This document shows positions 39,472-40,515 of a stretch of 64,000 bases of DNA, piece after piece (positions within the stretch are counted from its first letter, which is position 1; the number at the start of each line of letters is the position of its first letter). Made by a program: the position numbers and the translations under genes. Source of the DNA: Actinocatenispora rupis (GTDB lineage: Bacteria > Actinomycetota > Actinomycetes > Mycobacteriales > Micromonosporaceae); the NCBI RefSeq assembly GCF_016861975.1, contig NZ_BOMB01000040.1, positions 1-64,000 on the forward strand, given 5' to 3'. The notes beneath the pieces are model-generated. The model had not been told where the DNA came from. It did not search any database and was given only the letters and a program-made list of their open reading frames with translations.

Positions 39472-39828
39472 TCAGGCCGCGGACGACCTGGCGACCTCAC
39501 GCAGGACGGCGTCGGTACGGGCCGCTACCTGGGCCCGCGCGACGGCGTCACGCGCAAGGTCTTCCTTGCGGGGCCGGCCCCGCGGCCGCTTACGCGGCAC
39601 GACGGCACCGTGCTCGAAGATCTCGCCGCCCCACACGCCCCACGGCTCGTGCCGCTCCAGCGCGCCGGCCAGGCACTCGACCCGCAGCGGGCAGTCGCCG
39701 CACAGCGACTTGGCCACTTCCAGGTCCGCCGGGGTGTCGGCGAACCACAGGTCGGCTTCGAAGCTCCGGCAGGGCAGGTCCACCCCGGTCTCGACGGTCG
39801 GGTCGAGGGGAGTCACCACCAGGCTCAT
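39472..39828 (-). CDS. whiB7: WhiB7, redox-sensing activator of antibiotic resistance
   Basis: 118 residues. Four cysteines for a [4Fe-4S] cluster: Cys20, Cys43, Cys46 and Cys52 (CxxC as CGDC). GVWGG turn at 64-68 and an AT-hook RGRPRK at 83-88 that identifies WhiB7 among the Wbl proteins. In the family it binds sigma-A and AT-rich DNA next to -35 boxes to switch on efflux, ribosome-protection and other resistance genes. ATG 39828 has GAGG 10 nt upstream; the open frame extends to GTG 39849. Preceded by a terminator and two upstream ORFs (39884-40515). uvrD2 follows upstream, as in mycobacteria. Confidence 0.93.
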   Translation of the reverse strand: MSLVVTPLDPTVETGVDLPCRSFEADLWFADTPADLEVAKSLCGDCPLRVECLAGALERHEPWGVWGGEIFEHGAVVPRKRPRGRPRKEDLARDAVARAQVAARTDAVLREVARSSAA

Positions 39829-39883
39829 CGCCCGGTCACCTCGTTTCACGCTCGTGGCTTGATCAACTTCTGGGGAAACAAAA

Positions 39884-39983
39884 AGGCCGCGGAACCCGGT
39901 GTGCGGGATCCGCGGCCTCGAGGTGAGCCGGTCGGCCTGGTCAGGCCTGACTTTCCGGTCTTCCTCGAGGTGGGATTCCGCGG
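39884..39983 (-). promoter_or_regulatory. whiB7 attenuator: terminator with U-tract and competing antiterminator
   Basis: On the minus strand the terminator stem is 39918-39904 with 39898-39884 (15 bp, one mismatch, 5-nt loop), followed by TTTTT. This is the only classical U-tract terminator I see in the window. Just upstream, CCGCGG (39983-39978) and CCTCGAGG (39970-39963) can pair with CCTCGAGG (39923-39916) and CCGCGG (39915-39910), giving 14 bp around a 7-nt bulge and breaking the terminator stem. The upstream half of the antiterminator lies in the last codons of the 134-codon ORF, so a ribosome there would favour termination. Confidence 0.75.
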
Positions 39984-40345
39984 GCGAGAACCTTGGCCGC
40001 CATGGCCAGGGTGGACGCCGCGCCTACACCGGTCCCCTGCTGCTGGTCGATGCCGGCGGCATCGACGGACTCGTGCATCTCCGTGGAGACACTGAGCCCC
40101 TGGGTACGGAACTGAGGTGCCACATAGATCGGCTCACCGATCGGGAAGGCGGCCATCCAGCCGCCGTTGATCGGTGCACCGACACCGCGCATGCGGCGAA
40201 CGGGACTGCCGCTGTCGACTGCGGTGCTGGACCGCTCGACCCGCGGCTCGACCGGAACGGGGAACCCGGACACCGGCGCCGAGAACGCGGGCAGGTTGAT
40301 CGACAGCGGCGTGCACGGTCGCTGATCGCGGCTGATCGTCTCCAC
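39941..40345 (-). CDS. 134-codon upstream ORF in whiB7 leader
   Basis: GTG 40345 with AGGAGG exactly 8 nt upstream, the best ribosome site in the region; TGA 39943-39941. The product is Pro/Ser/Gly-rich with no recognised family (SINLPAFSAPVSGFPVPVEP, then MRGVGAPINGGWMAAFPIGE and SVSTEMHESVDAAGIDQQQ). The stop is 23 nt before the terminator stem and the last codons form half of the antiterminator, so translation of this frame probably sets whiB7 expression. It may also yield a real protein. Confidence 0.6.
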   Translation of the reverse strand: METISRDQRPCTPLSINLPAFSAPVSGFPVPVEPRVERSSTAVDSGSPVRRMRGVGAPINGGWMAAFPIGEPIYVAPQFRTQGLSVSTEMHESVDAAGIDQQQGTGVGAASTLAMAAKVLARGIPPRGRPESQA

Positions 40346-40350
40346 TGTCG

Positions 40351-40383
40351 TCACCTCCTGACGGCGCTCGGGTCGCTGGCCAT
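40351..40383 (-). CDS. 10-codon upstream ORF at start of whiB7 leader
   Basis: ATG 40383 with GAGGGAG 7 nt upstream, reading MASDPSAVRR then TGA. Its last two sense codons are AGG-AGG, rare Arg codons, and they are at the same time the Shine-Dalgarno of the 134-codon ORF. The stop overlaps an in-frame GTG (GTGA at 40354-40351). A ribosome on this ORF must cover or uncover the next ribosome site. Confidence 0.6.
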   Translation of the reverse strand: MASDPSAVRR

Positions 40384-40476
40384 CTGGCTGCTCCCTCGGT
40401 CTGAATCCGAACTCCGCACCGGCTCTTACCCGCGGTCGAAAACCCGCGGAAACCGGCGCGTCACCCGGACCTTGGC

Positions 40477-40515
40477 AGGCTATGCCGTGATCCGGTCGGG
40501 TGGCAATCGAATTTA
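40477..40515 (-). promoter_or_regulatory. whiB7 promoter with AT-rich WhiB7 site
   Basis: Minus strand: TTGCCA (40506-40501), 18 nt, TAGCCT (40482-40477), with TAAATTCGA (40515-40507) directly upstream of the -35. An AT block abutting the -35 is the known mark of WhiB7-activated promoters, so autoregulation is expected. Start near 40470 gives a leader of about 640 nt. Between it and the first uORF, two CCGCGG boxes (about 40430 and 40444) can form a hairpin. 40516-40616 contains nothing else apparent. Confidence 0.65.

Follow-up and report, generated by a model that had tools for sequence, protein, structure and literature searches.

The leader upstream of the antibiotic-response gene whiB7 in the genome of this soil actinomycete, an Actinocatenispora, raises the question of whether translation of a leader ORF decides if transcription reaches the gene. 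The original prediction answered that it does, by way of a translated uORF, a terminator and an antiterminator shared between the two. The comparisons described here support both the parts and the logic, with covariation found in both stems. On this comparative evidence, the leader is very probably a transcription attenuator of the whiB7/wblC type of actinomycetes, composed of a promoter, a uORF, a terminator and a shared antiterminator. Feature coordinates in the window, which is the whole 64,000-nt stretch of DNA analysed, are collected in Table 1.

Table 1. Positions and defining elements of the predicted whiB7 leader features and of whiB7.
Feature	Position	Strand	Elements
whiB7 promoter (putative)	40477..40515	-	Read from sequence: AT block TAAATT (40515-40510, 3 nt upstream of the -35), -35 TTGCCA (40506-40501), 18-nt spacer, -10 TAGCCT (40482-40477)
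First ORF of the original prediction (MASDPSAVRR)	40351..40383	-	ATG 40383-40381; 10 codons
uORF, putative translation sensor	39941..40345	-	GTG 40345-40343, TGA 39943-39941; 134 codons
Antiterminator left side (predicted)	39963..39983	-	CCTCGAGG 39970-39963 and CCGCGG 39983-39978; pairs with 39923-39910
Antiterminator apical hairpin (predicted)	39925..39959	-	From the MFE fold of 40000-39870; uORF stop codon at the tip
Antiterminator right side (predicted)	39910..39923	-	CCTCGAGG 39923-39916, CCGCGG 39915-39910
Intrinsic terminator (predicted)	39880..39918	-	AGGCCGCGGATCCCG / CGGGTTCCGCGGCCT, arms 39918-39904 and 39898-39884, then U5 (39884-39880)
whiB7	39475..39828	-	ATG 39828; WhiB domain; 4 Cys, GVWGG and an AT-hook-like RGRPRK tail, all read directly in the sequence

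The gene downstream of the leader appears to be a WhiB7 orthologue. Its product matches the Pfam family Whib (E 5.2e-13). The Pfam AT_hook model stayed under its cut-off in this product (E 0.075), and the NCBIfam search of the product returned no match. The closest named WhiB7 is that of Actinocatenispora comari (90% identity, 118 residues), and the genus is represented in the comparison by three further genomes. WhiB7 matches at E <= 1e-30 occur in 345 of the 346 genomes of the family, Micromonosporaceae. One family genome lacks a match at that threshold, and 30 of the 197 genomes in the class sample lack one at E <= 1e-18. On the minus strand, a gene for a UvrD-type helicase bearing an HRDC domain is followed by the leader, whiB7 and a PEBP-family gene (Pfam PBP), with the promoter, the 134-codon ORF and the terminator all lying between the helicase gene and whiB7. 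We take this helicase-whiB7 neighbourhood to be the mycobacterial uvrD2-whiB7 order. A search of the 64-kb window against Rfam gave no family at gathering score.

Related leaders were gathered at family and class level. Among the family loci, 130 of 134 fit the PPRG pattern of the uORF end, many of these loci being duplicates in which two collections supply the same genome. L020 and L023 carry variant uORF ends (PPRRRPV and PPRGIPV), L025 lacks enough upstream sequence and L035 was unrecognised by the pattern. Removal of a wrong match (L017) from 117 leaders left 116, and removal of one with a truncated start (L125) left 115 for the uORF statistics, with start codons chosen by script. Of the later family loci, L141 fits while L142 and L146 diverge; in L143 and L145, of the same family, the scripts found no uORF or terminator before whiB7, which may reflect diverged leaders or a limit of the search. 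The 69 class loci comprise 55 with a terminator and a uORF, 13 without a pattern-matched terminator and one unoriented. Five of the 13 belong to the presumed Streptomyces family and have a hairpin visible by eye; the labels Streptomyces and Mycobacteriaceae for some of the compared genomes are our guesses.

A class-wide leader model, R1, matches the present leader with E 5.8e-23, partly by construction, as this leader is one of its 56 training rows. The leader model does match near whiB7 in the genomes of L143 and L145 (G014, E 5.7e-13; G015, E 6.4e-9). A search of this genome with R1 for a second attenuator copy gave, besides the whiB7 leader and the reverse strand of that leader, just one weak place (C23, E 4.2e-4). 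This place, G000:C23:266228-266320 (L219), has a GGCCGCGG-type hairpin with a T run where an open frame ends, and resembles an ordinary terminator. Of the weak places in this and nearby genomes, five in four genomes were examined as second-copy candidates and rejected, three being open-frame ends that resemble ordinary terminators and two lying inside open frames.

The predicted promoter, with an AT block beside its -35, was recovered as TAAATT, TTGCCA and TAGCCT. In PMC7157823, the WhiB7 box is given as GAAAWY 3 nt upstream of the -35, and TAAATT agrees with it at five of six positions. The putative WhiB7 box adjoins the -35, as for autoregulation. Promoters of similar pattern stand upstream of the uORF in 112 of 115 leaders under a loose pattern and in 109 of 115 under a stricter box pattern.

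The uORF appears to be translated, as judged comparatively from its ribosome site and from indels that keep its frame. Its Shine-Dalgarno sequence, AGGAGGT, is perfect and has a spacing of 8; at least six of seven positions match in 107 of 115 leaders, and the spacing is 8 in 103 of 115. Across 571 leader pairs at least 80% identical (from 2500 drawn; the pairs overlap in ancestry and are non-independent), 907 of 1248 uORF indels come in multiples of three. For comparison, the 100 nt of 5' leader that precede the uORF give 169 of 1718, and the sequence past the terminator gives 220 of 1142; pairs counted for these flanks had to be more than 70% identical there. The encoded peptide appears less fixed than its frame. 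Over 1603 pairs, dN/dS is 0.72 for the whole uORF, 1.02 in the first 22 (N-terminal) columns and 0.56 in the middle, which describes a weakly constrained peptide body near neutrality. Because indels keep the frame while the peptide body is weakly constrained, the frame seems to matter more than the peptide. The product has no match in Pfam or NCBIfam at E <= 0.1.

The length of this uORF had been regarded as unusual, a view that the relatives do not bear out. Lengths run from 79 to 162 codons (median 85) in the 115 distinct leaders, 112 from the family and three from the order; five reach at least 134 codons, four of these in Actinocatenispora. In 55 further leaders, four of which belong to the family and two of which overlap the first set, lengths run from 43 to 160, with three of at least 134 codons, and eight leaders from one family, presumably Streptomyces, have uORFs of 90-123 codons. 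The 134-codon uORF is thus long for its family, yet inside the range of related leaders (43-162).

Two ORFs with excellent ribosome sites had also been proposed. The 134-codon ORF with its AGGAGGT stands, whereas the 10-codon first ORF is probably fortuitous. No ATG-started ORF occurs at its place in the three other Actinocatenispora leaders, and any ATG-started ORF ending between -25 and +30 of the uORF start is found in 17 of 115 leaders. A two-ORF sensor was rejected, the first ORF being unconserved even in its own genus.

Between the uORF and whiB7 lies a predicted Rho-independent terminator, ending in the TTTTT that had been noted beforehand. The antiterminator would be formed from uORF sequence and the terminator 5' arm. 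As anticipated, its left side is encoded by the uORF end (..RGIPPRGRPESQA*), and the last portion of its right side doubles as the terminator 5' arm. Fold z-scores are -3.29 for 40000-39870 (0 of 200 shuffles as good) and -4.13 for 39962-39870 (1 of 200). For the free leader (40000-39870), the MFE structure is the antiterminator form at -59.8 kcal/mol, with the forced terminator state at -59.0, a cost of 0.8. The equilibrium probability of the terminator without a ribosome averages 0.86 over 46 leaders and is 0.80 here. In a transcript ending before the terminator 3' arm, the antiterminator outer helix averages 0.97 over the same number of leaders and is 1.00 here. Blocking the left arm brings the terminator to 0.99, both as the mean of the 46 and here; the fold with 39990-39963 blocked, suggested with the original prediction, gives this value. 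It speaks against the attenuator model that the terminator is favoured without a ribosome in most leaders and that the two forced states are nearly equal here; the model therefore needs kinetics, and we infer that the switch is best read as kinetic.

Under normal translation, the ribosome would trail RNA polymerase to the uORF end and there occupy the left arm (or, in this leader, the space between the arms) while the terminator forms. Transcription would then end at about 39880, leaving whiB7 off. Should the ribosome stall or lag at any of the 134 codons, pairing of the left arm with the right arm, just transcribed, would precede synthesis of the terminator 3' arm; the terminator would then form too late and whiB7 would be transcribed. 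The choice between terminator and antiterminator would be a kinetic one. Given how weakly the peptide body is constrained, the uORF probably monitors general elongation and does not depend on a specific arrest peptide.

The position of the ribosome at the uORF end bears directly on this scheme. It had been proposed that a ribosome finishing the uORF covers CCGCGG/CCTCGAGG; in this genus it would hold for ribosomes a few codons earlier, but not for one on the stop codon itself, from which the arm lies 20-27 nt upstream. Counted from the first nucleotide of CCTCGAGG, the stop codon lies 18 nt away in 40 of 46 leaders, 21 nt in two and 27 nt in four. These four are L007, which is the leader of this genome, its congener L008, and L034 and L151. 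Two more leaders of the genus, L009 and L010, have the longer tail as well and were omitted from the 46 as near-duplicates. Compared with L014-type leaders, the Actinocatenispora uORF extends three codons beyond PPRG[RK]P (39970-39941), which sets the stop 9 nt farther from the left arm. A ribosome footprint spans -15 to +16 of the P site, and in the model based on it a ribosome on the stop covers the left arm at the 18-nt and 21-nt spacings and misses it at 27 nt. Because the stop here lies 9 nt farther from the left arm than in 40 of the 46 leaders, that arm would stay uncovered by a ribosome halted at this codon. With the ribosome in that place, the outer helix stays at 0.61 here and at 0.96 in L008, where the terminator is at 0.37, unless closure of the helix round the ribosome is sterically barred. 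With the ribosome nine nt before the stop, the terminator reaches 0.99 here.

In this genus, the predicted apical hairpin carries the stop codon at its tip, with 21 nt from there to the right arm; therefore, a ribosome on the stop would sit between the arms. The apical hairpin may have shifted along with the stop codon in Actinocatenispora and, as separate cases, in L034 and L151. An alternative is that the terminating ribosome acts from the hairpin tip between the arms and not by covering an arm, with residence on, and release from, the stop codon as the gate. This is rather unlikely, but if true, the displaced-stop leader would answer slow termination or ribosome release unlike its relatives and, its uORF being long and weakly constrained, would sum stalling across many codons as a length-tuned general translation sensor. 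As a natural experiment, the displaced-stop clade could reveal the position that the terminating ribosome must take. Neither Micromonosporaceae leaders nor the displaced stop were described in the literature searched, though such accounts may exist elsewhere.

For the preferred reading, in which the uORF end serves as the left arm of an antiterminator, the conservation of that end is informative. In 116 leaders, the final codons read G-[VI]-P-P-R-G-[RK]-P, and this end ranks among the most conserved parts of the uORF. Codon use is similarly narrow (CCT in 116, CGA in 115, CCA in 103, GGT in 89 and AGA in 85 of the 116); the rows were picked with the pattern P[PR]R[GS][RK], so that residue counts and dN are partly by construction, whereas codon choice is not. 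In the last ten codons dS is 0.043, compared with 0.132, 0.221 and 0.150 in the other parts. Because synonymous sites are conserved too, the uORF end looks to be set mainly by RNA pairing. Low dS is what the pairing of CCUCGAGG with a second CCUCGAGG beside the terminator would demand.

Selection at the protein level, with the uORF product working as a small protein or as a specific arrest peptide that has a conserved ..RGxPPRGRP C-terminus, is a very unlikely explanation of this end. It would suit the strong conservation of the end and the Arg or Lys after PPRG in all 116 rows (108 R, 8 K), a position unpaired in the RNA model, where the row-selection pattern demanded R or K and the constancy may be by construction (39958-39956 region). 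RGxPP also resembles the RAPP/RGPP arrest motifs, with one residue extra, of PMC12992588. Several observations argue against it. The synonymous sites of the last ten codons are nearly as frozen as RNA pairing demands, and the partner arm covaries with a G to S change in three rows with CCTCGAAG/CTTCGAGG. Elsewhere in the class, families whose uORFs end in unrelated peptides still keep the pairing, the uORF body is near neutral and its product finds no family in Pfam or NCBIfam. The C-terminal RAPP/RGPP core of PMC12992588 was rejected as a candidate for this uORF, which has RGIPPRG, with one residue between RG and PP. The constant Arg/Lys may reflect a residual peptide-level constraint.

Evidence for RNA pairing comes from covariation. 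The original prediction had made compensatory changes in both stems its test, and such changes were found at both family and class level. In alignment A1 (46 family-level leaders chosen at <93% similarity), 99.7% of outer-helix cells are paired, eight of them as G-U, and G-C changes to A-U in three rows (L022, L036 and L148). On four of five measures, the antiterminator as a whole scores above all 500 shuffles; further pair types in A1 do not rise above shuffles, 214 of 500 being as high. The A1 terminator has 98.9% of cells paired and four both-side changes. In alignment A2 (56 class-wide leaders, made up of 46 of the 55 and 10 family leaders; L161, L184, L197, L198, L200, L203, L204, L205 and L207, near-duplicates or divergent, are omitted, which may favour pairing), 75.4% of outer-helix cells are paired and 50 cells are changed on both sides, against 18.0 in shuffles (0 of 500 as high). 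The number of covarying pairs was reached by 38 of 500 shuffles and that of further pair types by 15 of 500. For the A2 terminator, 93.5% of cells are paired and both-side changes number 28, where shuffles give 5.0 (0 of 500 as high). Across the class, both stems covary, for example CCUCGAGG/CCUCGAGG versus CCUGGAG/CUCCAGG, and between families, by eye, CCTCGAGG/CCTCGAGG alternates with CCTGGAG/CTCCAGG and CCCTGGAG/CTTCAGGG.

A duplex test, which set the last 39 nt of the uORF against its own terminator arm, covered all 55 class leaders, including those omitted from A2. Pairing was matched by no more than 15 of 300 shuffles in 34 leaders and by no more than 3 of 300 in 19, while 21 of the 55 failed to reach the former level. 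The apical helix also covaries in relatives, with one pair formed in just 14 of the 45 rows having letters. Support is weak for an extension of the outer helix into the terminator arm: each of two alternatives, GUUCC/GGAAC or CCGCGG/CCGCGG, shows one both-side-changed pair, and the class-wide CCGCGG extension is paired in 59.0% of cells. It is scarcely credible that this is just an ordinary long 5' UTR containing a terminator, its left-arm pairing a chance by-product of palindromic GC-rich sequence. In this clade both arms are perfect palindromes (CCTCGAGG), because of which conservation alone says little, and the leader model gives a score to the reverse strand as well (E 6.4e-6), but non-palindromic versions in other families still pair (CCUGGAG/CUCCAGG, CCCUGGAG/CUUCAGGG), and slid helix registers score lower on every measure, the nearest being +1 (covariation 0.235 versus 0.327).

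The attenuator reading gives the antibiotic-producing family Micromonosporaceae a clean whiB7 attenuator, tested by comparison, and class-wide covariation is now given for its two alternative stems. An RNA-driven uORF end and a nearly free peptide body would fit a general elongation sensor with a broad drug response.

Attenuation of transcription mediated by a uORF was reportedly described for whiB7/wblC in Mycobacterium and Streptomyces by Lee, Lee and Roe in 2022. That whiB7/wblC leaders combine a uORF with attenuation, as the original prediction stated, agrees with the mechanism in PMC10727445 and PMC9618640, and the same mechanism appears in PMC11550727. Like the attenuators in PMC10727445, PMC9618640 and PMC13393426, the present leader is long and has a uORF, a putative Rho-independent terminator and a predicted antiterminator drawn from overlapping uORF and terminator sequence. 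An AT-rich WhiB7 box at the promoter is shared with the systems in PMC7157823. The present leader may differ in its 134-codon uORF and in a left arm that is the palindrome CCTCGAGG, and unlike most family members it has its stop 9 nt farther 3'. The whiB7 leader of M. tuberculosis, M. marinum and M. bovis, as described in PMC4128351, similarly has a uORF with a Shine-Dalgarno sequence and a stem-loop with a T-rich tail, and transcription there drops after the uORF. The mycobacterial leader is shorter, with its start site ~350 nt upstream of whiB7, whereas the -10 lies ~650 nt upstream here. As in trp/ilv-type attenuators and those of ABC-F leaders (lmrC, vmlR) in PMC12421871, the position of a ribosome in a leader ORF would choose between terminator and antiterminator. 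Those systems use short ORFs with a specific stall site, whereas the ORF here is long and its body appears weakly constrained.
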